A stretch of DNA of 64,000 nucleotides, taken from positions 251,084 to 315,083 of the forward strand of contig NZ_FNBG01000002.1 in assembly GCF_900102215.1 (NCBI RefSeq), in the 5' to 3' direction. The notes below the pieces were generated by a model. That model made no database searches, was not told where the DNA came from, and saw only the letters and a program-made list of their open reading frames with translations. Both the position numbers and the translations under genes were made by a program. This DNA is from Fontibacillus panacisegetis (GTDB taxonomy: Bacteria > Bacillota > Bacilli > Paenibacillales > Paenibacillaceae). Below, piece after piece: positions 20,851 to 52,091 of the stretch (the stretch's first letter is position 1; the number at the start of each line of letters is the position of its first letter).

Positions 20851-21591
20851 TTAGTGCGGCGAGGCTCCTGACACTGTTGCAGTTTTCGTATGATGGTCCC
20901 AACTGACTTTTGCGCCAAGAGCATCGCAGATTGTGCGAAGAGGAACATAGGTAACCTGATCCATCTGCTTCACATTCTCGATTAGCTTGCCGTTTATGAT
21001 CACTTTAACCGTGGTTTCATTAATAGGAGCCAAGACGTCCTTTTTCCGCAATCCTAAATACTTGGCGATTCCAATGGCATGCCCGTTCACTAGTAGCTTG
21101 ATTATGTCTGTCTGCTTCAGCTTGTCGGCATCATTTTTTACATCGATAAACAGATTTTCAGTCAGCACGGCAGGCATTCGGGATTCCCGGCACATGTGCA
21201 AATTTGCCGCCTTTTGTCCGCGGTCGTTCACACCGTATGACTTCAAGGCAGACATGATTTCGGTATGCAGCGCATGTTGAAGATCGGCTGTGGCAATGGA
21301 AGCCGAGGTGTAGCGGAAGGATTCGAATCCCCCAGCTCCTCCTCCAGCATTGCAATGGATCGATACGAGAATATCCGCTCCTGCAGCATTTGCCTTATTG
21401 GAGCGTTCTTTCAGCTCCAGGAATACATCCGTGCTTCGTGAGAGCCCGACCTGCACATCTTCATATTCGCTTTCAAGCTTGTCCTTAATGGCTAAGGATA
21501 AGACAAGAGCAATATCTTTTTCCTGAAGACCGTGGCCTGTCGCCCCCGGGTCCTTCCCGCCGTGCCCGGCGTCGAGCCAAACTCTTTTCAT
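20851..21591 (-). CDS. N-acetylmuramoyl-L-alanine amidase (tailocin endolysin)
   Basis: A 246-residue Amidase_3 enzyme that cuts the MurNAc-L-Ala bond of peptidoglycan. Zinc and catalytic residues are visible: H10 (DAGHGG), E24, H79 (SIHCN) and E145 (VLTENLF). Residues about 190-243 form a stalk domain of the copper-amine-oxidase N-terminal type (VKVIINGKLI, YVPLRTICDALGAKVSWD) that may bind the wall. There is no signal peptide, so export depends on the overlapping holin gene (ATGA overlap). It is the last gene of the tail clusters and the only intact lysin, so both modules must rely on it. Confidence 0.92.
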   Translation of the reverse strand: MKRVWLDAGHGGKDPGATGHGLQEKDIALVLSLAIKDKLESEYEDVQVGLSRSTDVFLELKERSNKANAAGADILVSIHCNAGGGAGGFESFRYTSASIATADLQHALHTEIMSALKSYGVNDRGQKAANLHMCRESRMPAVLTENLFIDVKNDADKLKQTDIIKLLVNGHAIGIAKYLGLRKKDVLAPINETTVKVIINGKLIENVKQMDQVTYVPLRTICDALGAKVSWDHHTKTATVSGASPH

Positions 21592-21986
21592 GGTTGATCA
21601 GCCCCCTTCCCTTTCAGCACTTCAACAGCCTTCCGCAATACAGGCGGAATCGGCGCCCCCATCCGGCCCGCATTTTCCAGAAAAGACAGCAGTTCATTTG
21701 CCAGAAAAAAGAAAATGGCCGCATCCCTGAACAAATGCGAATTCCCAAGTGCAGAATCGACCATATGCGATACCGCAACGATCGCGAAGATCGACACCTT
21801 TTTAGCGATGCCCCATACACCTGCTGTACTGTTCAGTCTGCCCTCTTTTGCCGCCGCCCCCACACCCGTCACATAGTCAATAATCACAAAAGCCAGCAAA
21901 ATGTTCAGCAAGGAAGACCACCCCCCGAATAAAAATGATGCTGATGAGCCAATCACGGCTATAAATACCTTTGGTACACTATCCAC
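21588..21986 (-). CDS. Phage-type holin (TcdE/phi-holin family)
   Basis: A small membrane protein of about 132 residues with hydrophobic segments near 8-22, 25-42, 60-80 and 87-103 in the longer reading. The IDYVTGVGAAAKEGRLNSTAGVWGIAKK motif is typical of the holin family that includes TcdE. I prefer the GTG with AGGGG nine bases upstream; an ATG three codons earlier abuts that site. It makes membrane lesions that release the amidase encoded four bases overlapping downstream. Confidence 0.88.
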   Translation of the reverse strand: MDSVPKVFIAVIGSSASFLFGGWSSLLNILLAFVIIDYVTGVGAAAKEGRLNSTAGVWGIAKKVSIFAIVAVSHMVDSALGNSHLFRDAAIFFFLANELLSFLENAGRMGAPIPPVLRKAVEVLKGKGADQP

Positions 21987-22010
21987 GCTTATCATCCCCT
22001 AAATTTAATA

Positions 22011-22033
22011 GCCCTCGGACTAGCTCCGAGGGC
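22011..22033. repeat. GC-rich hairpin upstream of the holin gene
   Basis: GCCCTCGGA pairs with TCCGAGGGC around a five-base loop. The T-rich side precedes the stem on the minus strand, so it is not a standard terminator of the tail operon. A near-identical hairpin (34029-34050) lies at the same place relative to the decayed holin gene, which marks the two sites as copies of one ancestral cassette. Confidence 0.6.
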
Positions 22034-22068
22034 ATAAAAAAAAACGCCTTGCAGCGCGTTCTTGATTC

Positions 22069-22200
22069 TTATGCTTCTGTCAAAAACTCCATACCGCTGT
22101 CCGTCAAGATCTCTCTTACTCCTGCTTGAAGAGATGTAGGTACTTCAGCAAATTTAGTCTTACTTAGAATAACCCGCTGTGCAAAAAACATCGCCATCAT
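22069..22200 (-). CDS. CD1375-like small tail-module protein
   Basis: A 43-residue gene between fibre and holin, starting at an ATG after GGGGTGAG. The protein MMAMFFAQRVILSKTKF continues with a Pro-x-x-Leu-x-x-Gly-Val-x-x-Ile-Leu pattern and ends GMEFLTEA. Proteins of this size and pattern (CD1375 family) are found in the same place in many Firmicute phages and tail-like elements; function unknown. Confidence 0.7.
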   Translation of the reverse strand: MMAMFFAQRVILSKTKFAEVPTSLQAGVREILTDSGMEFLTEA

Positions 22201-22250
22201 AAGCTCACCCCCTCACACGCGAGACATAAACCAATAAAATATGCGAGTGA

Positions 22251-22676
22251 TTAACTGTAAACCTGTACGGCCATTTCAGCTATACAATCCTCAATAAAAT
22301 CCGCTCGGTCAGATAGGGCGGTATTCTGCGCTTTGAGCAAAGTGTTTTCTCGCTTAAGCTCGTCCACCTCTAAACTTAGCGGCTTCTGATATACTGGCTC
22401 CTGTGGCTCCGGATCGCTAGGATCGAGGTAGCTAAACTCTAATTCTAACGTGTCCGGATTTACACGGTATCCGTTACATTCTGCAAAGTCCTGAGCGTAC
22501 TGGCCGGATTCTAGTGTTAATACACCTAATGATTCTCGATCATAATTCCGCAAATCAATTAACATGGCAAAGTCCTCGTCTATCGTTGTTTCCCTGACGT
22601 CTCCCCTAGACTCGTTTCTAGCGACAATCACAGCGCCATTTGCTTTTTGATAATAAATTTTTCTACCCAAAAACAT
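22251..22676 (-). CDS. Fibre-associated tail protein of unknown function
   Basis: A 141-residue acidic protein behind a GGAGG site. It begins MFLGRKIYYQKANGAVIVARN, has a central DPSDPEPQEPVYQ proline-rich linker, and ends in a heptad-rich helix (about 100-135) likely to form a coiled coil. Its position directly after the tail fibre suggests a fibre cap or assembly chaperone, by analogy with genes in XkdW position of PBSX; there is no motif that proves this. Confidence 0.65.
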   Translation of the reverse strand: MFLGRKIYYQKANGAVIVARNESRGDVRETTIDEDFAMLIDLRNYDRESLGVLTLESGQYAQDFAECNGYRVNPDTLELEFSYLDPSDPEPQEPVYQKPLSLEVDELKRENTLLKAQNTALSDRADFIEDCIAEMAVQVYS

Positions 22677-22693
22677 GTATCCTGCCTCCTAAC

Positions 22694-23776
22694 TTAATCA
22701 TAAGCCCACCACGTAAAACTCGTACTTGTCATATTACTGGGTACTGGTAACCCGAACCCTGTAGCTGTAACGGCCAGTGGCCCATCCAGTTTATAATCGC
22801 CCAATGACCCACCTGAAAAAATCAAAATATCCGCTGCGGCGTTTCCCCCATAATTTAAATCCACTGAGTAAATGACGAGCGTGGTTCCACTGATCAAAAA
22901 AATAAATTTAGGCTTGAACGTTAGATTTGTATAGGTTACAACACTCACAGTGCTTTGAGTTGAATTTGGCCGTTGAACCGAAATAGTACCAGCGGAACTA
23001 ATTATAGTTCCCTGGGCCGAATGCCCAAGCCCAACGCTTGCTATTTGTCCGATTTTTGACGCTAATAAAGACCAAGTATCGTTTGCGGATGCTAAAACTC
23101 CCTTGGCGTTAATCGCATCCGCAATGCTGTTTTTAGCATTAACGCCAGATTGAAAAAGATCTAGGGACCAGGGATACCACTGTCCAGCATATCTCATTCT
23201 CATATACATAGTGGGGACTGTATTTTCAAGCATTGTAGCCCTTTGCATACAAAAGTCAGTATTTGCGAATTGGAATACTTCAATGTACCACCAATGGGCC
23301 ACTGAATTAGGAGTATTGAGTAGCGATGCTCCGAGATACTGTCCACTATTAAAAACTGTATCTAGGTCCGCGCCACTTATATCAATACCCACACCGCTAT
23401 CTTGTGTAAGTCTATGTTTCTGCCAAGGCTTTTCATTAACATAAGTCTTGGAAGCTTTATCCGCCAATTGTGTAGTAACAGTGTTTGAAAAGTTGGTCAA
23501 ATTAGTTTGTACTGTCGCTGCTGCATTGACCCCCTCAGTACCTCTGTCATATGCGGCTTTGACCGCCTTCTCCGAAGCCGCTACATCGCTTCTAGTTCCA
23601 TTCGTCGCATTGGAGAGCGGGATATCTATATCCTGAAGCTCCTCCCGAACCTGGCCTACGGCCTCATCGATTTTATCCCAGTTGTCATTCAGCATCGTTT
23701 GAATGTTAAACGTATCATTTCCATCAGTCGCCGGGTCCTTCTTTAATAATTCAAGATTAGGTGTATTACTGGCCAA
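22694..23776 (-). CDS. Tail fibre of the contractile module
   Basis: A TTG start is set by an almost perfect ribosome site, AGGAGGTGATCC, giving 360 residues. N-terminal residues (NTPNLELLKKDPATDGNDTFN, NWDKID) form the baseplate-attachment part seen in PBSX-like fibres. A repeat-like segment (SDVAASEKAVKAAYDRG) precedes a pyocin-knob-like region (about 130-215: RLTQDSGVGIDISGADLD, MYMRMRYAGQWYPW). The C-terminal 120 residues are the likely receptor-binding tip and should set target range. It overlaps the upstream xkdU-like gene by 11 bases. Confidence 0.82.
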   Translation of the reverse strand: MASNTPNLELLKKDPATDGNDTFNIQTMLNDNWDKIDEAVGQVREELQDIDIPLSNATNGTRSDVAASEKAVKAAYDRGTEGVNAAATVQTNLTNFSNTVTTQLADKASKTYVNEKPWQKHRLTQDSGVGIDISGADLDTVFNSGQYLGASLLNTPNSVAHWWYIEVFQFANTDFCMQRATMLENTVPTMYMRMRYAGQWYPWSLDLFQSGVNAKNSIADAINAKGVLASANDTWSLLASKIGQIASVGLGHSAQGTIISSAGTISVQRPNSTQSTVSVVTYTNLTFKPKFIFLISGTTLVIYSVDLNYGGNAAADILIFSGGSLGDYKLDGPLAVTATGFGLPVPSNMTSTSFTWWAYD

Positions 23777-24344
23777 CTGGATCACCTCCTGCAAAATTTA
23801 ATAAAGGTTCTTGTTCAAGCTGATCAAGCGTCATCACTCCATCAATATCTCGAATCAATAAATAACTGAATTCGTACTCCACTTTCATATGCGCAGGCTT
23901 AATTTCCTCAATAACTTCTTTCAAATCATCGAGATTTGGAGGAATACCTACCGTATCCACAAAATGAATCGTAAAGCTCCACGCTTGCGGTTCAAAGGTG
24001 ACATTTACAGTTCCGCCATCATAGGCCTCCGCTACATTTTTAACGAGTCGTCCGGAAAATTTCCCGCTGCCGCGCAGCTTCGATTCAACGACCGCACGGC
24101 GTTGCTCAATGGGCTTCAAATAGTCGCTTTTTATTCCCAACTCCTGCTCCCAACGCTCCAAGCCCCAGGTTGCTGTCTGAACAAAAAATTGCTTCAATAG
24201 CTCATCCAGTGTGTCAAACAACGAGTCCAGCTCACTCCCCTTGGCATTCATATCCGCATTCATAATACGGGAATTTTCATAATACGCCGGAAGAAAAGAG
24301 AACATTTCACGCCCTCGCTTGCTGGTCATCAGCGACTCATTCAT
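23766..24344 (-). CDS. xkdU: Baseplate protein XkdU/YmfQ-like (DUF2313)
   Basis: A 192-residue protein of the YmfQ/XkdU family. Diagnostic parts are FSFLPAYYENSRIMNAD, LDELLKQFFVQTATWGLERWEQELGI and the RRAVVESKLRGSGKFS motif. In contractile tails these proteins close the baseplate wedge and join the fibre. The start overlaps the xkdT stop by eight bases. Confidence 0.88.
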   Translation of the reverse strand: MNESLMTSKRGREMFSFLPAYYENSRIMNADMNAKGSELDSLFDTLDELLKQFFVQTATWGLERWEQELGIKSDYLKPIEQRRAVVESKLRGSGKFSGRLVKNVAEAYDGGTVNVTFEPQAWSFTIHFVDTVGIPPNLDDLKEVIEEIKPAHMKVEYEFSYLLIRDIDGVMTLDQLEQEPLLNFAGGDPVGQ

Positions 24345-25455
24345 TCACACTCACCGTCCCTAATACGGCGACCTGCCCCGTCCCAATTTCCAGATTTGTA
24401 TCCTGATTGCTGTTTACGGTTAATTCGGAGTAATCAATAATCGGCGGAATGTCCAATAGAATCGCCGCAATACGTGTGTACCTGACTAGAGGGTCCTCAA
24501 AAGCAAGCTGCTTGAGATACCCCTTTACCCCAGTAGAAATCAGATTCTGAACATCAGCCAGTGAAGCTCCGCTAGCGAGTGTCAGCTTGACGCTGATATT
24601 AACGGGTACTTCCTGCGCAGGCATTACCGAAACAACGGCTCCAGCCGGGGCCATGCCCTCACCTTGACCATCCTTAGTCGGATCGATGTATTGCTGGACC
24701 GCTTGTACAATTTCCGAGCTTGCAGCACGCTTTTCAGTATCCAATAAATAAATCCCTACCGTTCCCGGCCCACTCCAGAGCGGAATAACCTGCACTCCGC
24801 CTACACCAGCGACCTCTCCGCCCCATTTCAAGTACTGCGCTTTATTGCCGCTGGTCCCTTGATTTCGTACCTGCAAATAATAGCGTTCAAGTAAAGATTC
24901 ATCCGATTCAATGTCCGCTCCGCCAAGTATTTCGTGTTCATTGGTTACCGCCGAAATCCCCGATATCGGAGTCGACATAATCGTAACAACCCCTGCTGGC
25001 ACGTTTCCATTCTTTCCGGGGATAACCGCACGAATCGCAATAGAACCCTCACCGTTATCATCCAACGTTACAGATGACAATGTCTCATATTCCATTGACG
25101 CTTCCCCTGTCACTTCATCTGCAGGAGTTGCAACAATAGAGCCTGCTGGTACCGTTTTTCCCGGCGTTCCTCTGAACGCAGCTTGTCCTGTCGCAGCGAC
25201 CGCCGCTCGGCGCACAACCCCGTGCTCGGCTGTCCGAAGATCCAAATACGCCCCAAACGTTGTACTCGCAAACCCACGCTCCAAAACCTGCTGCGCCCAA
25301 GTCGCCGCTTCGGATAGCATAAAAGCCGCCGGAGCCTGGGAATCCCAAATAAAAGAGCCCTCGGCTTTATCGATATCCGCGGGCACCCGGTTCAGCATTC
25401 GCTGCATAATAAGTTCTTCCGTCTGCTCTTCCAAAAAGATCGGCAATTCCGACAT
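24337..25455 (-). CDS. xkdT: Baseplate J/gp47 wedge protein XkdT-like
   Basis: A 372-residue baseplate_J family protein, a structural piece of the wedge that holds the sheath to the hub. Recognised from RGFASTTFGAYLDLRTAEHGVVR, the GTPGKTVPAGSIVATP strand-turn near residue 95-110 and the PGKNGNVPAGVVTIM stretch, all standard for gp47-like proteins. It shares one base with the upstream gene. Confidence 0.93.
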   Translation of the reverse strand: MSELPIFLEEQTEELIMQRMLNRVPADIDKAEGSFIWDSQAPAAFMLSEAATWAQQVLERGFASTTFGAYLDLRTAEHGVVRRAAVAATGQAAFRGTPGKTVPAGSIVATPADEVTGEASMEYETLSSVTLDDNGEGSIAIRAVIPGKNGNVPAGVVTIMSTPISGISAVTNEHEILGGADIESDESLLERYYLQVRNQGTSGNKAQYLKWGGEVAGVGGVQVIPLWSGPGTVGIYLLDTEKRAASSEIVQAVQQYIDPTKDGQGEGMAPAGAVVSVMPAQEVPVNISVKLTLASGASLADVQNLISTGVKGYLKQLAFEDPLVRYTRIAAILLDIPPIIDYSELTVNSNQDTNLEIGTGQVAVLGTVSVNE

Positions 25456-25910
25456 TATACCGATACACCTCCTTCTAAAGTAATCGTTTCATCCCGTACA
25501 TTTTTTACGTTGCACGTAAACTGGCAGGCATCTGAAGACCATTCGAAGGTGAAGCTGTCTACGCCTGCCGTTCTGGGATCTACCGTGAGCGCTTCCGTCA
25601 TCATTCGTTCGATCTCTGATTCCAGGACAGCACGACTATAGCCCCTGCCAATCAAATCATCATATTCTTGACCGTAGTCCCGAGAATAGATCAAGTGACG
25701 ATATCGGGGTGTTCGTACCGCTTTTTCACACCACATGACCCATGCCGCCGTATCTACTGCTGTTGATATTTTCCGAGTAGGGCTAAAAATAAAATCTCCA
25801 GCTTCAAAATCAAACAGCCAGCTTCTGCCAAAGGTTATATCCGCGCTATCCGAATCAACACCGTTCTCCGGCATCCATACGGTATCTTCAGGAAATAAAC
25901 TAGCCACCAC
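25455..25910 (-). CDS. xkdS: Baseplate protein XkdS-like (DUF2634, gp25-like)
   Basis: A 151-residue protein with the DUF2634 pattern RSWLFDFEAGDFIFSPTRKIS and WVMWCEKAVRTPRYRHLIYSRDYG. It corresponds to the gp25-type wedge component that nucleates sheath assembly. Its start lies within the last codons of the xkdR-like gene. Confidence 0.88.
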   Translation of the reverse strand: MVASLFPEDTVWMPENGVDSDSADITFGRSWLFDFEAGDFIFSPTRKISTAVDTAAWVMWCEKAVRTPRYRHLIYSRDYGQEYDDLIGRGYSRAVLESEIERMMTEALTVDPRTAGVDSFTFEWSSDACQFTCNVKNVRDETITLEGGVSV

Positions 25911-26313
25911 TGCTCACCACCCTGCACATCACGATGACATCCTTGCCACCGTTACAATTTAAAACTACCACTCGATCGCCGGGCTTAAGCCCCGCAGCCA
26001 GATTGATATTTACGTCCTCTATCTCCGACTCCTCAAAATCAAATCGCATTCGTTGCGAGGATTCCCCCAGAGGATTACCTTCCGCATCTATTAAAGATGT
26101 CGTTGTTCCTAAGAGGTGAAACGCAGGAAATTTCAACGTCACAGGAAAATCTGCAACCAAATAATCCTGAATTTCATGCTTAAACTGATCAAGCTTTACT
26201 CCAGTCGCGGTTATCGTTCCAAGCTCGCTTGTAATCCCGCTTACCGCATTACGGGTATATCCGGCTATCTGCTCTCTGAGCGAGCCAGCCAGCTCTTTAT
26301 AAGGATCATCCAT
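25900..26313 (-). CDS. xkdR: Baseplate-hub protein XkdR-like (DUF2577)
   Basis: A 137-residue DUF2577 protein with a short OB-like core (LKPGDRVVVLNCNGGKDVIVMCRVV at its C terminus), as found in gp5/spike-like hub proteins of PBSX-type tails. It overlaps both neighbours by a few bases, as expected for a tightly coupled tail operon. Confidence 0.82.
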   Translation of the reverse strand: MDDPYKELAGSLREQIAGYTRNAVSGITSELGTITATGVKLDQFKHEIQDYLVADFPVTLKFPAFHLLGTTTSLIDAEGNPLGESSQRMRFDFEESEIEDVNINLAAGLKPGDRVVVLNCNGGKDVIVMCRVVSSGG

Positions 26314-27292
26314 AATTCAGAAAATACCTCCTTTTCACAAGCTCAATAGAGCCCAGCTCTAATGACATGTGACCAGGATCGCCGAGCTGGTGAGTCACAG
26401 ACATGACGATTAGCTTCAGCCCGCCCAGTTCAACCTTATCCCCTGCCCGAAGTGTATTGATATCCAGACCGCTCACCGAAAAAGTTTCCTGTATGCCGGT
26501 CAGCATGGCATTTCCTAATTTTTTTGCAGCAGCCTCTGTTTTAACATCCTCATCCTGAACCATCCGCTGAAGGGTACCGAGCTTAGGAATCAGGTCAGAG
26601 GAAACAACAGCTAGGACAGGAGAGGGGGCTTCATTTCCTGCTGTTTCCCTGCTGCCAAGGACCTTGACCTGCGTAACCGCACCTTCCAGCGTTCGACTCT
26701 GACTGACCTCCTCAATAGCCTGAAGCTTCCAAACCGTAGTGTTGCTACCGATTTTGAACAACTCCAGCCCTGCCGGAGTCATTCGGGGAATGTACATGTC
26801 CCCGCCGGATTTCACCGTTTCCTGTAAATCGGCAGTTATCATTTTGTACAGCGGCTGCGTACGATAGATGGCTTTGCTCAGCTTTTGCTTCGTATCGGGA
26901 ACATTAGCCAGTTGAATGCCCCAATCCTTTGCATATTTTTTTAATCGTTGGCTTGCTGTACCTCCTGCTGCAAAAAGATATTCGTCTTCCGATTTAGCCA
27001 AGTAAATGGTACGATCATACACGTTAAGCTGCAGATGCTTCGTGCTGTTATTGCTGCTGTTACATTCCCAAATGACACCGGGGTTCAGTAAATAAACTTT
27101 GTTACTCCCTGCCGGAAAAGGGGTTCCGCTAATTCGAATAACCTGGCCGGGAGCAAACGAAATTCCCTCTTCGGGAACCTTTAGCTGAATGTTTGCGTTA
27201 TAGGAAATTTGGTCCAGCGAATCCGTTAAAGAGATACTTTCAATCAATTCTCGCAAATAATATTTGTCCTGCAGTACCACCTCATAGCTCAT
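26306..27292 (-). CDS. xkdQ: Baseplate hub protein XkdQ/YqbQ-like (gpD/gp27 fold)
   Basis: A 328-residue hub protein of the XkdQ/late-control-D type. The N-terminal LQDKYYLRELIESISLTDSLDQISYNA and the C-terminal GDKVELGGLKLIVMSVTHQLGDPGHMSLELG are typical. It forms the trimeric ring at the end of the tube. The four-base overlap with xkdP supports co-translation. Confidence 0.88.
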   Translation of the reverse strand: MSYEVVLQDKYYLRELIESISLTDSLDQISYNANIQLKVPEEGISFAPGQVIRISGTPFPAGSNKVYLLNPGVIWECNSSNNSTKHLQLNVYDRTIYLAKSEDEYLFAAGGTASQRLKKYAKDWGIQLANVPDTKQKLSKAIYRTQPLYKMITADLQETVKSGGDMYIPRMTPAGLELFKIGSNTTVWKLQAIEEVSQSRTLEGAVTQVKVLGSRETAGNEAPSPVLAVVSSDLIPKLGTLQRMVQDEDVKTEAAAKKLGNAMLTGIQETFSVSGLDINTLRAGDKVELGGLKLIVMSVTHQLGDPGHMSLELGSIELVKRRYFLNYG

Positions 27293-27933
27293 GACGGAAG
27301 CACCAGCCTTTGTCCTGCTCTTATCAGATTAGGATCAGAGCCGATTGCGGCTTTGTTCAGATTGTAAATGTCCTTCCATTTGGTGCTGCTTCCCAGCTCC
27401 AGCTTGGCGATTTTGGATAAGGTATCACCCGACTTGACCGTATAAGTTTTGGATTTACTTTTCATATCAGATCGACTGGTAGAGGCTTTGCCCGCATTTT
27501 TTCCGGCCTGCGTGTGTATTTTCGGCTTTCGCCAAGTGCGCGCTGTAAAATCAAAATTAATATCCCCAAGCTCGCCACCTCGAAACGTGCTGTTATGTGC
27601 TGAAATCAAAACATAAGCATTGATGACTTTTCCAGTTGGTCCCGCAATAATTAAATGAACGGGTGTCTTGCTATTCATCATTTCTGTTAAACGATGCATC
27701 GCGTCCCTAGGATCGGGGATTTCAGTATAATTACAATACGAATCGTTATATACCGCAGGAAAAAAAGAAGAGAAGGTGATCTCCTTCACCTTCTCTCCAT
27801 TGGAGAAATCGAATTCTCCTAGATTTACAATATTGACCGTCTCTATTCCCTTTCCTCGAGATATTGATATCTCTTCAGGATCAACGGGGAAGAAAAAATC
27901 ATTGCCAACTGCATCAGTTAGTTGAATAGTCAA
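27289..27933 (-). CDS. xkdP: LysM-containing tail hub protein XkdP-like
   Basis: A 214-residue protein with an XkdP/gp53-like N-terminal part (FFPVDPEEISISRGKG, NVERG-like strand pattern, GELGDINFDFTARTWR) and a C-terminal LysM domain, about 165-212 (YTVKSGDTLSKIAKLELG, WKDIYNLNKAAIGSDPNLI, AGQRLVLP). It fastens the tape measure to the hub and may touch peptidoglycan. Confidence 0.9.
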   Translation of the reverse strand: MTIQLTDAVGNDFFFPVDPEEISISRGKGIETVNIVNLGEFDFSNGEKVKEITFSSFFPAVYNDSYCNYTEIPDPRDAMHRLTEMMNSKTPVHLIIAGPTGKVINAYVLISAHNSTFRGGELGDINFDFTARTWRKPKIHTQAGKNAGKASTSRSDMKSKSKTYTVKSGDTLSKIAKLELGSSTKWKDIYNLNKAAIGSDPNLIRAGQRLVLPS

Positions 27934-29715: not shown

Positions 29716-29720
29716 TATCT

Positions 29721-29897: not shown

Positions 29898-29911
29898 GCC
29901 ACCGGAGTCGA

Positions 29912-30373: not shown

Positions 30374-30394
30374 ACTCAAAAATCCTCCTCTTAA

Positions 30395-30811: not shown

Positions 30812-30827
30812 TGACTATTCCCCCTAT

Positions 30828-32291: not shown

Positions 32292-32292
32292 G

Positions 32293-43830: not shown

Positions 43831-44610
43831 CTATCCTACATATCTAAACTGGTATTTCCATTTCAATTGGCAATCTCCATAGACTTTAAAATAATTAGCG
43901 CCCTCGACTAAACATGGAAAATCACCATATGCATCGTCAAAATGATAAGTAAGCGGAATATTGGAAACAATCTCCTCTTGCTCTGAATAAATGATAAGCT
44001 CCTCATCCGCCCGTAAATTTACTATTCGAAAGGTTTTTCCTTGATTCGACAAATTTACAATGGATAGCTCACCATCTCCGATCTTGCGAATCGACAAAAC
44101 GGGCTTACATGTCATGTTCCCTTTATTTTCAATCATTAATTTGCTTCCCGAAGAAGAGTTTCTTGAAAAATCGTACAGATCGGACTCATAAACAGGAGAG
44201 TAAGTATATGGGCTCATGCTTCTCATTTGAATTTGTACAGTGCCTTGCTTCAAACAATTATGCAGCAGTTTGGCCTCCCCAGTATAAAGAGTGTAATACC
44301 ACTTATCCAAATGATCTGAAAAATAAAGCGGTTTATAGTAAGGTTGATTACCTAACCAGTTAGCTACTTTGTTCAACTGTTCATTGTCAAAATGCTCTGT
44401 AAAAGCAAAATTCAGTGACAGAGTGAACGGTTTTCGTTCTGTTTCAATAAAATAAGGGGTGTCTCTGCCGCGAACAGTAATTTCTTTAAGATTCTGCTCA
44501 GGAAGAAAAGGTTGCTCCTGCATTCCTGTGCTCATATTGACATTAATTAAGCCCATTTCATCACTTCGAATTCCGTCATATACAAAATGTAAGCTTTCAG
44601 CAATTGTCAT
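43831..44610 (-). CDS. Distal tail protein (Dit)
   Basis: A 259-residue phage_tail family protein from the ATG following GAGGTGA. The N terminus FVYDGIRSDEMGLINVNMSTG, the middle GRDTPYFIETERKPFTLSLNFAF and a galectin-like C-terminal half match Dit proteins, which form the hexameric ring joining the tube to the tip in siphophages. Placement between tape measure and Tal confirms it. No baseplate wedge genes occur in this module. Confidence 0.88.
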   Translation of the reverse strand: MTIAESLHFVYDGIRSDEMGLINVNMSTGMQEQPFLPEQNLKEITVRGRDTPYFIETERKPFTLSLNFAFTEHFDNEQLNKVANWLGNQPYYKPLYFSDHLDKWYYTLYTGEAKLLHNCLKQGTVQIQMRSMSPYTYSPVYESDLYDFSRNSSSGSKLMIENKGNMTCKPVLSIRKIGDGELSIVNLSNQGKTFRIVNLRADEELIIYSEQEEIVSNIPLTYHFDDAYGDFPCLVEGANYFKVYGDCQLKWKYQFRYVG

Positions 44611-44639
44611 TGATTTCACCTCAAATAAAAGAGATAATT

Positions 44640-47600
44640 TTAAATCCCTGATTTTTTAAAATTTTTCTGAATAATGCTAAAGAATGTATTAGCTCCTTCT
44701 TCATTGCCCTGCAGCTTGTCTATCGTGATATACATATTCACATCTCCACCAGGCACAGCAGCTGCGGGAGCAGAAATATTCATGAATGAAGAAGTAATAT
44801 TCTTGATTCCTTTGAATATGCTTCGTGTAACGTCCACAGCAGTAAGCAAATTTGCTGTATCTGTCTTGTTAAGTATTAATTCTTTCTCATGAGCAAGTAG
44901 GAACTTACCCTCTGTGTAAGCCGGCGTCATTCCACCAGACTCAGCCGAAAATGGTTTCATTTTTTGTAACTCATCAAAGCTACCATCAGGAAAATGATAA
45001 GTTTTACGATAAGCATCGTTTTCAGCCTGTAATTTTTTAAAACTCTTCTCCATCTGTTTGTACTCTGCTGAATTTTTATTATCCATAGTAGACATTTTCT
45101 TTCTAATCTTTTCAGCTTCATCTTTATTTTCCAAATAGGATTTCCATGCCGATTGTGCTGATGCACCAGTAGTTCCAGCATTCAAAGCTGGACTCTGATC
45201 TAATTTTAAGCTATCCTGCTGATATTCAAATTCCAAATTCTCTAACAGCCTCGTACCAAGAATTTCAGCAGATGTTCCTACATTTAGCATTTGATCTTGT
45301 AAAAACTGAAAAAACACTCCGTACTCACCTTTAATCTCATTAATACGACTTGCAACAATGATAGCATCATTACTAAGCAAGTCTTGCTTCATCTGATAAA
45401 ACACCTTCTCATCTTCAAGCATACCTTTGTAGAGTTGTTCTTTTTCTTCCTTTTCTTTCTCCCATTTATCAATTAAACCATTATGATACTCGTCTTCAAG
45501 ATCCTTCTGAACTCCTATTTGCTCTTTTTTATCTTCTAATTGGTCAGAGAGGTTTTCTTTTCTTAGCTCCCTTTCCCTATCCTGTCTAAAATTACTGATC
45601 TCTTCATCCTTATTAATCAACTGCTCATCCAGTGACTTTCTTTTTGCTTTGGCTTCATATGAATCGTCCAATGCTAAAGTATTGATTTGATTGACAATAT
45701 CCTGCCGCTCTTTCAATTTCTTATTAAGATCTTTATCATAATCAACAGATGAAAATTCACGATCCATTTGTTTAAGCTGCGCATTGATGACTTTCTCGAA
45801 CAACTCCAGCTCATCATCCAAGTTTTTCATTGACTCTTTATGCCGTTCATCTTCCAATTGTTTGCTCTTTTCGATTTCTGCAAGCTCAAGCTCCCGCTTC
45901 TTCTCAAGCATCTTCTTATAATTAGAAATAACCGAATCAGCATAAGATTCGTTAATATCACGAATGGATTGTGAATATTCGTAGTTATCCAGAGTCAATT
46001 GCTCCAGCTTATCTTGCAAATCAGCCTTAACTTTAACAGAAAGCTGTTCATCTTCTAATTGTTGTGAAATGTAAGCAATGGCTTCTTTATTTACTGCAAT
46101 TTGATCTTTGGTAAGGGCCACCTGATTATAAAGCTCTTTAGAATATTCAGATGAGCCTTCACTGTACTCCAGCATTTTGTTACGTGATAACTGAAGCTGA
46201 TATTCTCCATCTAATATTTTATTGGAAAATTTCTCAAGATCACTATTAACTAATTTGATTCGTTTAGACTGTATTTCTTGTGTAATCTCATCGGCACTTT
46301 GACCAAGTTCAAAAAGCATTGCATCCAAATCGTCGGATTCAATGTTAAATTCCTTCATGGATGCTTCGATTGCATCAGCCTTAGCACTAAGAAGTTCACG
46401 TTTATTTAATAAAATGTCGATTTGCTTACTCTCTTCAAATCGATACTTATCAGAATCTTCTGTGAATTTCATTTGCGTTGCCTTAGACTTTTCCAGCAAT
46501 CCGTCCTGAGTTCGAATTTTCTTATCAAAGGTAGCATTATTACTGTTAATAGTATCCAAATTATTAAGATAAATTTGGTTATCGGTAGCAAGCCACTCTT
46601 GTGATTTATCTTTATAATTATTATCATTACTTCCAGTTTTCCCGGAAGATCCTTTATAATTCGGGGATACCGCCCCAACAATCCGTTTTGCGCTTAAGTA
46701 TCTTGAAGACCAATAATTGCTGGTTAAGTCCGCCTCTTTAAGCCCATTATTAGTTCCCATCTGAATAAACTTATTATTTCCCATAGAAATTCCTACGTGT
46801 GAAACGTTTTTTTTCCCAGATCCATCGTTAAAAAACACCAAATCTCCAGGCTGTAAATCCTTTTTATCAATGGATTGGCCTACCTTAGCTTGCTGTGCTG
46901 AAGTTCGAGGAAGCTTGATATTCAGAAACTCCTTGAACATTTCCTGAACAAATTGAGAGCAATCAGAAATCGCACCATTAACAAACTGTTCATATGTTCC
47001 TTTATATTCACCAGAGACTTTCGCATATGCGAATTTACCTTGAAGACCAACCGCCTCATTAAGCATGGCTGAAACCCCAGAATTTGATACTGAAGCAGTT
47101 CCATTATTGACGGCATGAACTTGATCCGGGATATAAGTTGAATTACTATTATTTTTTGTATCTTGCTCAATCAGCTTCTTCTTTTGCTCGAGGAGCCTAT
47201 TCTCCTCCAATAATGAATCCCGATACTTTTGTGATGATTTAGCATATCGTTCCCTCTTATGGGCATTCCTATTAATAGCATCATCAACGGCTAATAGCTT
47301 CTTTTGAAGTTCAGACAATTGCTCACTAACTGATTCCGCACTAGATCCTAAATCCTCTTCTAAGCTTTTCCCAACTGTTTTCAAGGATTCTTCTAATATT
47401 GCTGAATTTTTAAAGAGCTCAATAAAACTATCAATAAGCTCTTGCCCTTCCTTTTTATTAAATTGATTTATTTTGTAAAGCCATATGCTTCCTGGATCCG
47501 TACCCTCTAAACCTATATTAGTATCATCTAATTTTTCTCTGGCTTCTATTGCATCTTCAAGAGAATCTATCGCATTTAATTCAATTCCATAGGCCAGAAG

Positions 47601-49559
47601 CTTTTGAGTTAAAACTTGATTGGCTGCTATCAGATCATCTTTTCTTGCTCTTGTTAAATCTTTTAAAGCTTGTATTTGCTCTGTACGCTGCTTCTCAGCC
47701 AAATCAGTGTTTAGCTTGATAATTCCATTTTCAACGTAAAATAGATCAATCAATGATTGATCTTCTTTGATTAGTTTAGCTACTTTCTCTGCATTCAATC
47801 CTTTTTCAGAGGAATTCTCATTCAACAGGTGGTTATATATAGAAATTTTTTCTGCAGCCTTTTCATAGGAAGATTGGATGTCTTCAATCGCATCCTGCAT
47901 AGAAAATGCTTTTTGATCTACATCAGGGAATTGGGCAAGAATCTTACCCATAAAATCATTAGAAACTGTCTTCCCATTTGTAACAGATTCAATTAACTCT
48001 TCTACCTGTAAACGGATGGCCTGAATTTTGGTATTATCTGTAGTCGATGGGTTTTGATCGAATTGATTAACTAAATCATGATATGAAGTAATCAATTCCT
48101 CTAGGTTACCTGAGACCATACCGTTAATTATTTCTTCAAGCTGATCCTCCTGTTCCATTACAGTGGATCCATTTCCTGAGATAGAGTTCACAATTTCCTG
48201 AATAAACGAACGCTGAGTGTCCGAAATTTGCGTTCCATTTTCTATCAAACTATTTACGTAGTTATTGGTGCTTGCGTTTAAGGTTTCTTTTCGATCAAAT
48301 AAGCTTGTATTTAACTGAGTAGTGGACTCGTCCAATTTGACTTTCAGTTCAGCTAATTCTTGATTATAAGCCTCTAACAATTTTTGGGGAGTATAAGAAT
48401 GCTCTGACAATAATTTTTGATCCCAGAATTTATCTGATCTTGATAAATTCCCATATTCAGATACTATTTCACCTGTGTACATAAGCTGGTCAGAGGATAC
48501 TTTCCCTGATTTAATATCTTCTTCCAGCTTTTCAATTTGTTTTTTGGTGTTTCCAACACGTTCTGTATATTCACTAACATCTTCTTGTGCATTTTTGATT
48601 TCTTTGGTGTTCTTTGAATCTTTTGCAATTAATTTTGAACGATTGAGCTGTTCCTCCATTTGAATCTGTTTCTCTAAAGCTGCTGTCCTCTCATTTATGG
48701 AAGAAATGGAATCCGAATACGCTCTTCCTTCCGCATCTATTTTGTTGGCAGCAACCCCGTATTGTTCAACTAATTGTGTCTGAATATCCAGTAAACGCTG
48801 TTTTCCCTCAGTATTTAAATCCCCTCTATCATCCATTTGCAGAAGAGATTCCATTTCCGTTTTTAATTCAATAATGGATTGCTTTTGTTCCCGAAGAGAT
48901 TCTATCTGACTATAGTTAATTTTAACTGCTTCAGCTGATTCTCTTCGAGATTTTGCAATAGCCTCAACCATTGCAGAAAGAGCCCAGGTGACTCCACTAA
49001 TAGCAAGGGATAGTCCCATAGACATCGCACCTTGCAGAGCAATCGTAGCTAATCTTGCAGATGCAGCGGAACCTGTATATAAATTAGTAAACCATGATAA
49101 TGATTCAAATCGCAATCCGGCTTGGGCGACCTTTAAGGATAATGATTGTATTATGTCCTCGTTCTTAACAATGCTGTCTGCTGTACCTCGAAACCCACCC
49201 TCGATATCTTTTCCTGCCTGATCAGCCAGACTCTTCAGAGATGAAGAATCCGTCTTGGTTGAGCTACTCGCTTTTGAGCCTGCAGCAGGCAAATCTTCTA
49301 TACTTTTCTTTAAGGATTGAACAGATTTGATTTGCCTGTTGAGTTCAACCGTTCCTTCTGCTATAGCTTCATTCATTGACTTAATCACGTTAAGAAAATG
49401 GTTAGCGGAGCGAGTATAGCTATCATTCATCTTGATTTCAATTAGCAGCTTTTGCAGTGCAGGGTGCTTGGCGAGAGCTTTAAGATTTGAATTTATAGTC
49501 TTGATTGAATTTTCTGTATCTAGCCCTGCTGTAATCAACATTTTCAAATTATTAGACAT
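44640..49559 (-). CDS. Tape measure protein with internal NlpC/P60 peptidase
   Basis: A 1639-residue protein from the ATG nine bases after AAGGAG (an ATG two codons earlier is closer). Long coiled-coil regions flank a membrane-like stretch (about 145-200). Near residue 825-945 lies an NlpC/P60 cysteine peptidase: catalytic Cys about 865 in DCSQFVQEMF, then LQPGDLVFFND and His about 921 in SHVGISMG. This would open peptidoglycan during injection. Tail length follows the length of the tape measure, so the particle should have a much longer tail than the contractile one. Confidence 0.9.
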   Translation of the reverse strand: MSNNLKMLITAGLDTENSIKTINSNLKALAKHPALQKLLIEIKMNDSYTRSANHFLNVIKSMNEAIAEGTVELNRQIKSVQSLKKSIEDLPAAGSKASSSTKTDSSSLKSLADQAGKDIEGGFRGTADSIVKNEDIIQSLSLKVAQAGLRFESLSWFTNLYTGSAASARLATIALQGAMSMGLSLAISGVTWALSAMVEAIAKSRRESAEAVKINYSQIESLREQKQSIIELKTEMESLLQMDDRGDLNTEGKQRLLDIQTQLVEQYGVAANKIDAEGRAYSDSISSINERTAALEKQIQMEEQLNRSKLIAKDSKNTKEIKNAQEDVSEYTERVGNTKKQIEKLEEDIKSGKVSSDQLMYTGEIVSEYGNLSRSDKFWDQKLLSEHSYTPQKLLEAYNQELAELKVKLDESTTQLNTSLFDRKETLNASTNNYVNSLIENGTQISDTQRSFIQEIVNSISGNGSTVMEQEDQLEEIINGMVSGNLEELITSYHDLVNQFDQNPSTTDNTKIQAIRLQVEELIESVTNGKTVSNDFMGKILAQFPDVDQKAFSMQDAIEDIQSSYEKAAEKISIYNHLLNENSSEKGLNAEKVAKLIKEDQSLIDLFYVENGIIKLNTDLAEKQRTEQIQALKDLTRARKDDLIAANQVLTQKLLAYGIELNAIDSLEDAIEAREKLDDTNIGLEGTDPGSIWLYKINQFNKKEGQELIDSFIELFKNSAILEESLKTVGKSLEEDLGSSAESVSEQLSELQKKLLAVDDAINRNAHKRERYAKSSQKYRDSLLEENRLLEQKKKLIEQDTKNNSNSTYIPDQVHAVNNGTASVSNSGVSAMLNEAVGLQGKFAYAKVSGEYKGTYEQFVNGAISDCSQFVQEMFKEFLNIKLPRTSAQQAKVGQSIDKKDLQPGDLVFFNDGSGKKNVSHVGISMGNNKFIQMGTNNGLKEADLTSNYWSSRYLSAKRIVGAVSPNYKGSSGKTGSNDNNYKDKSQEWLATDNQIYLNNLDTINSNNATFDKKIRTQDGLLEKSKATQMKFTEDSDKYRFEESKQIDILLNKRELLSAKADAIEASMKEFNIESDDLDAMLFELGQSADEITQEIQSKRIKLVNSDLEKFSNKILDGEYQLQLSRNKMLEYSEGSSEYSKELYNQVALTKDQIAVNKEAIAYISQQLEDEQLSVKVKADLQDKLEQLTLDNYEYSQSIRDINESYADSVISNYKKMLEKKRELELAEIEKSKQLEDERHKESMKNLDDELELFEKVINAQLKQMDREFSSVDYDKDLNKKLKERQDIVNQINTLALDDSYEAKAKRKSLDEQLINKDEEISNFRQDRERELRKENLSDQLEDKKEQIGVQKDLEDEYHNGLIDKWEKEKEEKEQLYKGMLEDEKVFYQMKQDLLSNDAIIVASRINEIKGEYGVFFQFLQDQMLNVGTSAEILGTRLLENLEFEYQQDSLKLDQSPALNAGTTGASAQSAWKSYLENKDEAEKIRKKMSTMDNKNSAEYKQMEKSFKKLQAENDAYRKTYHFPDGSFDELQKMKPFSAESGGMTPAYTEGKFLLAHEKELILNKTDTANLLTAVDVTRSIFKGIKNITSSFMNISAPAAAVPGGDVNMYITIDKLQGNEEGANTFFSIIQKNFKKSGI

Positions 49560-49600
49560 CAGCATTCACTCCTTTTCATGAAATTTACAACAATAAAATG

Positions 49601-50047
49601 CTACTCTATTGTTTTCACAACCTGATCAAAATTACTTTGAACAGACTTCAACTTTTCTTCAATCTTAAGTAACTGCTGAGGAGAAATTGCATCATATACC
49701 TCTTTCATAATTCCTGTATCAAGCAAAGTGTTTGTAACGGTAATTAAGCGATTCAGATCATTCGATTTAGGAATAGGGAGATCTGTAAACTCTCTCAATA
49801 CCAGAGTATTAAATATCCCCAATGATCCTCTAATTAAATCCTCATCGCCTTCTCCATGCTCTTGCAGCTCATTTAAAATTGACAAATAAGCTTTAAGTAC
49901 ATTTTCGATCATTGATTCACGAAAAACGACACTTATCGTTACAGCAAACTGACCGCCATAAACAAAAATCGTTTTACGTTCATTTAAATTGGATTCCAAA
50001 CTTTTCAAGCCCGATGCAGTAAGTTTTTTATTCTGATTCTTTGTCAT
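49601..50047 (-). CDS. Probable tail assembly chaperone (F-type module)
   Basis: A 148-residue helical protein between tube and tape measure, the usual chaperone position. YGGQFAVTISVVFRESMIENVLKAYLSIL suggests an N-terminal sheet followed by helices. The start is placed at the ATG nine bases after AGGAG; one two codons earlier is also possible. I searched the end for a slippery heptamer and saw none, unlike the counterpart in the other module. Confidence 0.6.
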   Translation of the reverse strand: MTKNQNKKLTASGLKSLESNLNERKTIFVYGGQFAVTISVVFRESMIENVLKAYLSILNELQEHGEGDEDLIRGSLGIFNTLVLREFTDLPIPKSNDLNRLITVTNTLLDTGIMKEVYDAISPQQLLKIEEKLKSVQSNFDQVVKTIE

Positions 50048-50142
50048 TTTCATTCACTCCTAAAAGGTTATTAGTATCTACAAATAGGCCACTCAGTACA
50101 GCATTCTTGAAAAAAGAAAGCTCTATAAAATGACCTATAAAA

Positions 50143-50185: not shown

Positions 50186-50980
50186 TTAGGCAAGAAGCGA
50201 TTCGTCATATACCGTCATCGTGTAAAGCTCTGTTCCATTAACCGGCTTTAGAATTTCCATAGGAATATCAAACACGGAAGGGTCACCTGTGGCAGCCATT
50301 GTAATGGACCAATTGTCTTCCATCTTCGCTTTATTGATTACAATTTGAGCGGCGTAATCCTTCTCATCGACAATGTTGCGGACAAGACAATCCAGAACTA
50401 CCTTGTAAGTACCTGCAAATTTATCTGACGAAACTGTGATGGTTTTTGCAGAGGTATCTGTTGCGACTTGATAGTAAGCAACAATTTCAGTACCATTAGC
50501 CAGATCTCCAGATTTAAAGCTAATCTCCTTATTAGTCAGGGTATATTTATTTGAGGCTAAATCAGAAGCAAAACCGATTTCCTCATCATGTGTACCATCA
50601 GCATGTAGAGTGTACACACTGATCAATCCGTTAACTGCATTTACAGGAGTAAACTTAAGTGTAGCCTTGTCACCTTCCACCTTAAGAATTTCCTTCTGGT
50701 AAATGCTCTTGGCACCTGGTTTAATGTCATTTCCCGTCATCATCGCAATGACTTCGTTCGTGAACACCGCATCCTGAAGCGTTACACGTCCTCCTCGGTT
50801 ACCAGAGAAACCAACAATTTTCGCATTGCCGCGCCCGCCGAGAGAATAAATCGTCTCTGCGGTATTTTCCAAACCGGAGGTTTTTAAGTTATTAAGTTGA
50901 ATGCGTGCTTTATTGGTAGTCAAATCATAAAAAGTTGCAAGTGCTACTTCGCGTACTGCCCATACATTTGGTGTTGTCAT
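50186..50980 (-). CDS. Major tail tube protein (F-type module)
   Basis: A 264-residue protein with the siphophage tube pattern: VREVALATFYDL, QLNNLKTSGLENTAETIYSLGGRGNAKIVGFSGNRGGRVTLQDAVFTNEVIAMMTG, and a C-terminal ITMAATGDPSVFDIPMEILKP. An inserted beta domain (about 95-165, TLHADGTHDEEIG) may be surface-exposed. It is unrelated in sequence to the XkdM-type tube of the other module. Confidence 0.82.
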   Translation of the reverse strand: MTTPNVWAVREVALATFYDLTTNKARIQLNNLKTSGLENTAETIYSLGGRGNAKIVGFSGNRGGRVTLQDAVFTNEVIAMMTGNDIKPGAKSIYQKEILKVEGDKATLKFTPVNAVNGLISVYTLHADGTHDEEIGFASDLASNKYTLTNKEISFKSGDLANGTEIVAYYQVATDTSAKTITVSSDKFAGTYKVVLDCLVRNIVDEKDYAAQIVINKAKMEDNWSITMAATGDPSVFDIPMEILKPVNGTELYTMTVYDESLLA

Positions 50981-51004
50981 AAAAAAATCACTCCTATAAA
51001 TTAA

Positions 51005-51718
51005 TTAGATTTTATTTGCCCAATGAATATCAGACATTTTTACACTTTTTCCATCCACTGTTCCGGCGTATATGCCAGTTAACGTATGATGGTAATGATC
51101 GATGCTGTTAGTAAAAAAGAAACCATTATATATCTGATAAATATTTAGTTCAAAAACTTCCTGCATGCTGATTCCATTCTGTTTCCACGCAAGTCCCGAT
51201 ACAATGCTCAACAGATCCATTTTCTCTCTAGGCTTATGCTGCTTCTTCCTGGCCTTTAGAATAAGGTTAATCATTTCCTGAGCCTTTGAATTCACCGGAT
51301 TAAATTCCGGTTCATTCTCACTCTTTAAGTGATTAGCTAGATACAATACTCTCTGGAAGAAATTAAAATTGGTTGAGTCGAGAATACCGTCCTTCCCGAG
51401 TCGAATAAAATAGCGTTCCTTTTCCTCCACGATTTCCGGATCTGTGCAAAAAAAGAGACTTAATGCTTGAAATGCTAACTCCCTAAACGATTTATTATGC
51501 AAGCAATTTGCATACAGGATGTCGAATTCAGTAACATTTTCATCGATAGAATGAGCGATGCTTTTCCTATCAATAAGAAGAATGGAGAGCAATTGATTGT
51601 AGGTACTGAACCCTGTCTGAGCAATTTTTTTTAGACTTGGAAGATAGATTAAGCCTGCCCCTTCAAGCTCAATTGGAATATTAACCAGCATTTTAAGCTC
51701 AAGATCGATATCGCTCAC
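51005..51718 (-). CDS. Unknown tail-module protein, F-type module
   Basis: A 237-residue protein without a motif I can name. The N-terminal half is beta/alpha mixed; the C-terminal half has GLAWKQNGISMQEVFELNIYQIYNGFFFTNSIDHYHHTLTGIYAG, which looks like the tail assembly chaperone type found in some Firmicute siphophages and phage-tail bacteriocins. Its place before the tube gene could also fit a tail terminator. The GTG start has a poor ribosome site. Confidence 0.55.
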   Translation of the reverse strand: MSDIDLELKMLVNIPIELEGAGLIYLPSLKKIAQTGFSTYNQLLSILLIDRKSIAHSIDENVTEFDILYANCLHNKSFRELAFQALSLFFCTDPEIVEEKERYFIRLGKDGILDSTNFNFFQRVLYLANHLKSENEPEFNPVNSKAQEMINLILKARKKQHKPREKMDLLSIVSGLAWKQNGISMQEVFELNIYQIYNGFFFTNSIDHYHHTLTGIYAGTVDGKSVKMSDIHWANKI

Positions 51719-51749
51719 CTAAATCACAACCTTTTCAGCATCCATCGAT

Positions 51750-51905
51750 TCATCTCCACCTCCCCTGTAGCTCCAGGACACATCGCGGAAGACTACAAAA
51801 TTGTCTGGTTCCCTCCAAACGCCCCCAAATGCAATCCCTGCAATGTTCAGGCTGAATCCATTCAATCTCCTCGAACGCAGGCGGATTTTTATTGTTATTT
51901 TTCAA
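51750..51905 (-). CDS. Small CxxCIWGR protein leading the F-type module
   Basis: A 51-residue protein from a TTG behind GGGGAGGGAG. Core CRDCIWGRLEGTRQFCSLPRC with four cysteines spaced as a likely zinc knuckle. It is the clear relative of the 69-residue protein that begins the contractile module (CKGCIWGRWEGTKQFCS). Same gene position, same leader hairpin and same promoter repeat, so it belongs to the shared control or initiation part of both modules. Confidence 0.6.
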   Translation of the reverse strand: MKNNNKNPPAFEEIEWIQPEHCRDCIWGRLEGTRQFCSLPRCVLELQGRWR

Positions 51906-51925
51906 ACGATCTCCCTCCCCAAAAA

Positions 51926-51948
51926 GAAAAGCCACTGATCATTCAGCG
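51926..51948 (-). terminator. Leader hairpin before the F-type module
   Basis: CGCTG/CAGTG stem followed by GGCTTTTC on the minus strand, between the promoter repeat and the first gene. Matches the hairpin before the contractile module in stem sequence and place; the T-run is shorter. Confidence 0.4.
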
Positions 51949-51993
51949 ACCTTAACTTGAATTATTTTTTTGGTATTCTGGCAGCCAGCTCAT

Positions 51994-52091
51994 CCTGTCC
52001 CCCATTTCCCACACTACAAATTTAACACGTAAAAAGTCTAATAGAGGGTCATGCCTTGGACAAAAAGCGGACATATGTTCGTATTTTTCAA
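51994..52091 (-). repeat. 98-bp direct repeat, copy 2 (promoter of F-type module)
   Basis: Identical over 98 bases to the copy at 33281-33378. Its upstream end touches the terminator of the islA-islB operon, so the promoter for the F-type module must lie inside the repeat; this argues that the repeat itself is the control unit. Confidence 0.9.
52068..52081. promoter_or_regulatory. Near-LexA/DinR box in repeat copy 2
   Basis: CGGACATATGTTCG, the same one-mismatch LexA-like palindrome as in copy 1, placing both tail modules under one presumed SOS switch. Confidence 0.6.

Follow-up and report, generated by a model that had tools for sequence, protein, structure and literature searches.

The locus and its two tail modules

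The stretch of DNA considered here, which we call the window throughout, is a 64-kb segment of the genome of Fontibacillus panacisegetis (G000:C44:251084-315083, where G000 is the window genome, a 5.26-Mb draft in 76 contigs), and the system in question is a pair of phage-tail gene sets lying within it. Open reading frames (ORFs) and family searches delineate two modules on the minus strand, a contractile module A (20851-33186) and a non-contractile module B (34118-51905), in agreement with a first-pass annotation, made from the sequence alone, which had described two complete tail modules of that content and order running in the same direction. The G+C content, ~0.375 for module B against 0.45-0.47 for module A, implies that the two have separate histories. 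Together they very probably constitute an R/F double tailocin locus, in which a headless R-type tail resident in the genus is combined with a headless F-type tail derived from the SPbeta/Sundance phages, each under one of two near-identical promoters. The contractile side has the following features (aa, amino acids).

20851..21995, minus: lysis cassette A, an N-acetylmuramoyl-L-alanine amidase with a C-terminal copper amine oxidase (CuAO) domain and a holin (PF01520, 1.8e-40; PF07833, 4.4e-08; PF05105, 6.9e-41)
22251..23794, minus: R-type tail fibre and a 141-aa downstream protein, both varying between two strains (PF03406, phrog_3321)
23766..27933, minus: baseplate set, XkdU-, XkdT-, XkdS-, XkdR-, XkdQ- and XkdP-like (PF10076, PF04865, PF10934, PF24032, PF01476, phrog_2403)
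27946..32996, minus: tape measure A (589 aa), XkdN-like chaperone, tube, sheath (487 aa), and 71-aa and 163-aa proteins (PF08890, PF09393, PF04984/17482/17481, phrog_279, phrog_2146, phrog_1939)
32977..33186, minus: Cys-rich leader gene A, with a TTG start, resembling leader B by eye
33209..33229, minus: terminator-like leader hairpin A, followed by a T run
33276..33378, minus: promoter block A, with 11-bp-spaced TGTCC repeats and a -10-like motif

Module A holds the sheath, tube, baseplate and fibre that define an R-type tailocin, and family searches show its gene content to be XkdK/M/N/P-U-like, with Pfam-type matches to Amidase_3, Phage_holin_4_1, Phage_fiber_2, Phage_Mu_Gp48, Baseplate_J, Sheath_initiator, YQBQ, LysM, the DUF2001 tube and sheath domains. 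The 163-aa protein is a putative terminator by position only; the protein encoded at 32505-32996 has ~160 aa in the window, G001 and G024 and ~280 aa in several relatives. The start of leader A was re-read from the sequence, a GTG at 33213 falling within leader hairpin A. Matches to this Cys-rich leader precede the tail genes in many relatives, and the first genes of both tail operons (32977-33186 and 51750-51905) encode a CxxC ... C pattern with no family match. The non-contractile side, including the genes interspersed at its tip, is as follows.

34118..37804, minus: F-type tail fibre, 1228 aa, with its N-terminus similar to Sundance gp041 and no Pfam match (phrog_11315, phrog_23059, phrog_16586)
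37847..39001, minus: FN3/Ig-domain protein, 384 aa (PF00041, 9.4e-10; phrog_37329)
39009..39704, plus: second CuAO-domain gene, secreted-looking (signal peptide by eye), antiparallel, adjoining the orphan Tal-tip fragments (PF07833, 9.7e-09)
39717..40291, minus: broken orphan Tal C-terminal fragments, parts of which have 94-97% DNA identity to Tal, lower at the tip end
40412..41044, plus: CuAO-domain gene, secreted-looking, converging on Tal; candidate immunity gene (PF07833, 1.1e-08)
41067..43820, minus: Tal tail-tip protein, 917 aa, with a variable C-terminal tip (PF24049, YOMG_N, 3.6e-28; PF06605, Prophage_tail, 8.3e-18; phrog_6211, 3e-208)
43831..44619, minus: Dit, one gene matching the two of Sundance, gp036 and gp038 (phrog_33, 9.5e-30)
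44640..49565, minus: F-type tape measure, 1641 aa, with an NlpC/P60 domain (phrog_4211, 6.1e-118; PF00877, 1.3e-23)
49601..50053, minus: putative tail chaperone, 150 aa (position, match to Sundance gp031, phrog_7383)
50186..50980, minus: F-type tail tube, 264 aa, 35% identical to Sundance gp030, with a homologue annotated as tail tube in phage PJN02 (phrog_2729, 1.7e-53)
51005..51718, minus: 237-aa protein, the first tail-side gene of module B and, by position only, a putative terminator (phrog_4051, Sundance gp029)
51750..51905, minus: Cys-rich leader gene B, with a TTG start
51931..51950, minus: terminator-like leader hairpin B
51989..52091, minus: promoter block B, 99% identical to block A

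Module B has the whole gene set of an F-type tailocin (tube, tape measure, Dit, Tal and fibre), and no sheath or wedge family is matched among its proteins, as had been noted before. The long tape measure had likewise been recognised, although with 1639 residues, the frame from the first ATG encoding 1641. A comparison with NCBIfam left 9 of 10 unknown tail proteins without a match, the tape measure giving partial NlpC/P60-type matches only.

The contractile tail in the genus

A sheath match of some kind is present in 33 of 40 genomes of the genus, and we read 28 R loci with close sheaths, drawn from 27 genomes. The module adjoins araA, as it does in the window, in four relatives (G001, G037, G008 and G009). 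A cassette with YolD-like, ImmA, Xre and ArpU genes lies upstream in 26 of the 28 loci, the exceptions being G008, within the stretch covered, and G011b. The latter is preceded by terminase and portal matches above cut-off and a capsid match below it, and is therefore a prophage. Judged from these sequences, the contractile tail is a genus-resident locus. Three genomes (G011, G031 and G016) carry a second, different contractile module ahead of the R module, so that the presence of two tails at an R-type locus is recurrent, while a second tail of the F type is not. The window genome also contains a third contractile tail locus with a sheath match (L083:9319-20116, equivalent to G000:C71:49319-60116), in which no head, lysis or phage-type regulator genes were noticed on reading its ORFs.

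Absence of head genes

That no portal, capsid or terminase gene lies in the locus, as the first-pass annotation had stated, is borne out by a search with 31 head proteins of related phages, none of which matches anywhere in the window. Among 25 F-type loci searched in this way, some over stretches extending only 7-10 kb upstream, 17 including the window gave 0-2 matches and eight gave at least 14; where there were two matches, both were to versions of the last connector. These queries came from three phages, namely Sundance together with L095 and L097, which are themselves two of the eight headed loci. One Sundance-type head query matches within the G004 R locus stretch. For the contractile tail the queries were all from one prophage, G011b, whose 10 head-side proteins match none of the other 27 R loci, nor the window (an eleventh protein is a tail-side terminator-like gene), and the tail is headless in 27 of the 28 R loci read.

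The rest of the genome likewise yielded no head or packaging genes, whose presence would have contradicted the earlier proposal of a tailocin: four portal/terminase families, each detected in between 2 and 4 of the 14 genomes used as controls, gave no match in the whole genome, other terminase, portal and capsid families not being searched genome-wide, and Sundance TerL gave none in a search without control. A PBSX-type element would possess both a capsid and a terminase, with which host DNA is packaged; here no portal or terminase family is matched genome-wide and no head-side protein in the window, capsid families not having been searched across the genome.

The genes of module B correspond in the same order to gp029-gp041 of Brevibacillus phage Sundance, and no protein matched gp017-gp028. 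By homology and gene order the core of module B is a tail of the SPbeta/Sundance type that begins at the first tail-side gene; the tail homology expected of this phage group is present and the head genes are not.

Promoters, leaders and the regulator cassette

Ahead of each leader lies the 103-bp promoter block, of which the genome has two full copies, a third match spanning 21 bases. Its -10-like motif precedes the first tail gene in 24 of the 28 R loci and both modules in the window, is found again ahead of the second module of G011, G031 and G016, and has one extra match each in G008, G011 and G031, away from the first and second tail modules. Among the F loci scanned (five together with G034, G015 and L099) the sole match is inside the chaperone region of G033. 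Upstream of the motif are TG[TA]CC repeats, and across 32 promoter sequences all pairs up to 45 bp apart are spaced by 11, 22, 33 or 44. An 11-bp pair is present in 27 of the 32, against a shuffle mean of 0.01, the promoter pattern and the repeat having been defined by eye from these same loci and the shuffles preserving base composition only. For the leader hairpin, in the interval from promoter to leader, nine pairs are predicted over 19 sequences, three with compensatory changes.

The likely regulators are encoded by a cassette of Xre, ImmA-type protease and ArpU-type activator genes, with a YolD-like gene as in the R loci, at L082 4122-6267, or ~68122-70267 on the scale of the window, in which the ArpU-like protein matches TIGR01637 with 59.9 bits (cut-off 43.1) and phrog_248, and the protease phrog_87. 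Between it and module B are ~16 kb of other genes, metabolic-looking for the most part (52119-68100); the distance from tails to cassette is similarly widened in G004, G007, G034 and G009. The statement that integrase and repressor are lacking consequently needs qualification: none occurs in the searched set of proteins from 20851-51935, a part of the window ORFs, and the Xre repressor cassette lies outside the window.

From this anatomy we infer that the TGTCC repeats would be the activator sites and the hairpin the point of antitermination. Removal of the Xre-type repressor via the ImmA-type protease, as the named families suggest, would permit the ArpU-type activator to bind the 11-bp-phased repeats, and RNA polymerase could then pass the leader terminator and transcribe each tail operon. 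The single holin/amidase cassette would lyse the cell and free both particles, whose fibres and Tal tip might bind the walls of related bacteria, death ensuing from membrane depolarisation. SOS induction of the locus is only suggested. Direct LexA control was considered on account of sites in both blocks that deviate by one mismatch from the LexA consensus. It was rejected: a site with at most one mismatch occurs in the corresponding stretch of only 3 of 19 relatives (G011, G031 and G016), 4 of 100 window shuffles gave as many matches, and the site overlaps the first TGTCC repeat.

Origin of the non-contractile module

Between the fibre gene of module B and promoter A are the remains of a further lysis cassette.

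33543..33974, minus: remnant holin and amidase genes, a broken second lysis cassette, with 81% and 86% DNA identity to the intact pair (21735-21949 and 21085-21335)

The locus has a single intact lysis cassette; the remnant of the second had escaped notice. With an R-type promoter, hairpin and leader in front of the F core and lysis remnants behind it, module B has R-type ends, and it may have arisen when an F-type core came to occupy the interior of a copied R-type operon.

The remaining F tails found in the genus are at sites away from the R sheath and have a gene for a YonO-like polymerase upstream. This polymerase is found in 7 of the 40 genomes, which are exactly the seven other genomes with an F tube; G000 has the tube, and no polymerase of the YonO type, a hallmark of the SPbeta group, was found in it. 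Headless SPbeta/Sundance-type tails with the upstream YonO-like gene occur in G004, G008, G010, G015, G033, G034 and G036 (for example, L012:12550-15381), and the same arrangement in L099, G049, G050, G072 and G277; several of these tails are near riboflavin genes. Family-wide, the F tube is present in 51 of 394 genomes. A DxDGD motif is invariant in the four YonO-like proteins aligned. One YonO-like type gives a Pfam RdRP match and another is 52% identical to an SPbeta-group gene at the annotated yonO position; a search of solved structures returned a single match at chance level. The late genes of SPbeta are transcribed by YonO (PMC5467207). Fisher tests gave 4e-7 for YonO with the F tube, 2e-5 for promoter class, in a table that scores the in-gene motif match of G033 as none, and, from rounded background counts, 2e-14 for CuAO next to Tal, values that overstate the independence of close-kin loci (G004/G036/G008/G010, G049/L099 and G170/L210).

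A second strain and the alternatives

IMG/VR contains the window locus at 100% identity and one locus of another strain, strain 2, which retains both modules in linkage. The gene order is unchanged, both promoters are present, and the sheath is 98% and the F tube 94% identical. The ratio of nonsynonymous to synonymous substitution (dN/dS) is 0-0.25 in 23 of the 25 genes compared, the CuAO genes being outside this count, and 0.171 over nine genes of module B; these sequence comparisons place most of the genes, in module A as in module B, under purifying selection. Fibre A retains 53% amino acid identity across an alignment of 288 residues, nothing in strain 2 matches the DNA of the 141-aa gene, and tape measure A (27946-29715) is 42% identical over 400 aligned residues despite the 98% identity of the sheath.

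Several observations weigh against reading the locus as a functional double tailocin. The assembly is a draft of 76 contigs; linked R and F modules are known from two strains only; and, among 30 F-tube loci with 1.5-kb flanks, the Cys leader was found in the window alone, strain 2 having been found later. Because 16 kb separate the activator from module B, its role there is one that we infer. For fibre A and tape measure A dN/dS is 0.36 and 0.44 with dS saturated, raising the total of module A to 0.335. Finally, the F tape-measure frame of strain 2 stops early after a deletion, and the F tail may therefore be dispensable or decaying there.

The last point bears on the possibility, which we regard as unlikely, that the R-type tail alone works, the F module being carried along or serving as a reserve of tips. 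The R module is indeed widespread and an F module under the R-type switch rare, yet the F genes of the window are open, the dN/dS of module B is low, and the module has its own promoter, its own leader and an exchanged tip. Still less probable is the proposition that the locus consists of two decaying tandem prophage remnants without present use, as the remnant lysis genes, the orphan Tal fragments and the interrupted tape measure of strain 2 might suggest; the window's tail genes have open frames, constraint extends over nearly all genes compared, the R module recurs beside araA in G001, G037, G008 and G009, and there are two near-identical promoter blocks. A PBSX-like gene-transfer particle with its head encoded elsewhere, for which the XkdK/M/N/P-U-like content of module A could be cited, is scarcely credible given that the four portal/terminase families are unmatched in the genome and that the head-side genes of G011b are missing from 27 of 28 R loci as well as from the window.

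The R/F double tailocin thus remains the best reading, as the first-pass annotation had it, the modules being headless here and in most relatives, linked in strain 2 and preceded by a common promoter block. What the sequence itself shows is headlessness with respect to the families tested, the order of the genes, the identity of the promoters, selection, and linkage in the second strain; induction and expression of the particles, killing and immunity would follow if the locus functions as we suppose, and the purpose of the paired tails is probably the killing of rival bacteria.

The Tal tip and its CuAO neighbour

An internal duplication of the Tal tip and the CuAO gene in module B (39083-42314) had previously been overlooked. 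Its two CuAO copies are 89% identical in their N-terminal and 67% in their C-terminal parts. When the window is compared with strain 2, the DNA is 90-100% identical over 40381-40680 (the N-half of CuAO), 30-73% over 40680-41205 (the C-half of CuAO and the Tal tip), and again 90-100% over 41205-42285, which implies that one exchanged block holds the 3' halves of both the CuAO gene and Tal. Linkage to and exchange with a receptor-binding gene, the latter observed for a single pair of strains and inside two loci, are what a superinfection-exclusion or immunity gene would display.

A CuAO gene is next to Tal in 8 of 19 F loci with Tal and missing in 10, G172 ending at Tal and being uninformative. 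The gene is antiparallel in the window, G049, G050, G064, G170 and L099, and on the same strand in G209 and G272. Among single-Dit loci found via the tube it is present in 7 of 7 where the Tal end is covered, the sequence of L098 stopping short. Because G170, G209 and G272 bear heads, the gene is also phage-borne, and the viral contigs L163, L210 and L211, found via the CuAO protein, have the same Tal-CuAO arrangement. A hidden Markov model (HMM) for CuAO, built from 11 of its eventual 16 matches and run over 1519 ORFs from tail loci only, placed 13 of the 16 by Tal and three near R leaders. Five open CuAO genes, with N-terminal identities of 89-99% and C-terminal identities of 25-43%, are interleaved in G064 (L154:9943-15661) with four ORFs matching C-terminal parts of Tal. 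The CuAO domain of the lysis amidase fits a function in wall binding. An AlphaFold model of the CuAO protein is poor (pLDDT 42.5), the window CuAO protein has no match in the phage collection, and a scan of viral contigs with the G064 CuAO protein found no relative.

These relationships raise the possibility, which we put forward tentatively, that the Tal tip and the antiparallel, secreted, wall-bound CuAO protein form a cognate pair for specificity and immunity, the F tail's own immunity system. We propose that the convergent orientation sets both variable 3' ends together between conserved arms, such that one recombination could swap both. The orphan tip fragments that adjoin open CuAO genes would then be a stock of orphan immunities, and the role of the CuAO gene in the ancestral phages would be superinfection exclusion. 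The main rival explanation, for and against which we find the balance about equal, is that the CuAO gene encodes a cell-surface protein hitchhiking with the exchange of Tal tips and unrelated to protection. In this bacterial family CuAO domains are a common feature, an exchanged block might carry any neighbouring 3' end, the second CuAO copy of strain 2 has just 147 aa, 10 of the 18 informative F loci have no CuAO gene at Tal, and a promoter scan around CuAO genes found 7 against 10.0 expected, that is, none above chance. Hitchhiking would not readily explain why the HMM matches are concentrated in the Tal-CuAO region (11 of the 16 being seeds), why the pair recurs in head-bearing phages as well as in other headless loci, or why all five CuAO genes of G064 remain open amid Tal C-terminal fragments.

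Relation to known systems

The R- and F-pyocins of Pseudomonas aeruginosa lie adjacent to each other and have common lysis genes. Like the predicted particles of the present locus, they comprise headless R and F tails. This locus differs from them in its Xre/ImmA/ArpU genes and in the CuAO gene at the tip, and also in ancestry, since pyocin tails are P2- and lambda-related (PMC12090994), and the tails here are PBSX-like and of the SPbeta/Sundance type. Both pyocin clusters were present in 45 of 109 P. aeruginosa isolates in one study (PMC13295577). Among the best-ranked matches of the open-access literature, subscription papers being mostly outside it, we found neither a Paenibacillus locus with linked R and F tails, in keeping with the earlier remark that no described case was known in Paenibacillus-like bacteria, nor a gene for tailocin immunity.

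Among Gram-positive systems, PBSX(-like) killer particles have Xkd-type tail genes as in module A, and PMC9406221 and PMC8347963 describe PBSX-like regions with bacteriocin activity in Bacillus and Brevibacillus laterosporus; such particles have capsid or terminase genes or package host DNA, none of which was found at this locus. The F-type monocins of Listeria are headless non-contractile tails (PMC12090994), here likened to module B by description only. The Sundance/SPbeta group has tail gene order and homology in common with module B, its head genes being absent from the locus and its TerL and YonO-type polymerase not found in the genome. The stand-alone YonO-linked F tails of the Paenibacillaceae belong to the same headless tail family but possess, in all seven cases within the genus, a YonO-like polymerase, in place of which the window has the R-type promoter and leader. 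Open-access papers on YonO included none on tailocins, by title.

For the CuAO gene the nearest precedent is the superinfection-exclusion lipoprotein gene llp of phage T5, which adjoins its receptor-binding gene on the downstream side (PMC9586334). Llp acts on FhuA from the periplasm, and its likeness to the CuAO protein is one of gene position, no similarity being claimed. Two papers state that no self-immunity protein is known, and the open-access literature yielded nothing on the copper amine oxidase N-terminal domain in connection with phage.

The locus accordingly offers a specific and deletable candidate for tailocin immunity. Its promoter signature could be used for finding multi-tail loci in the genus, and its construction suggests how a tail may move between control systems, from dependence on a phage-type RNA polymerase to control by ArpU acting on phased repeats.

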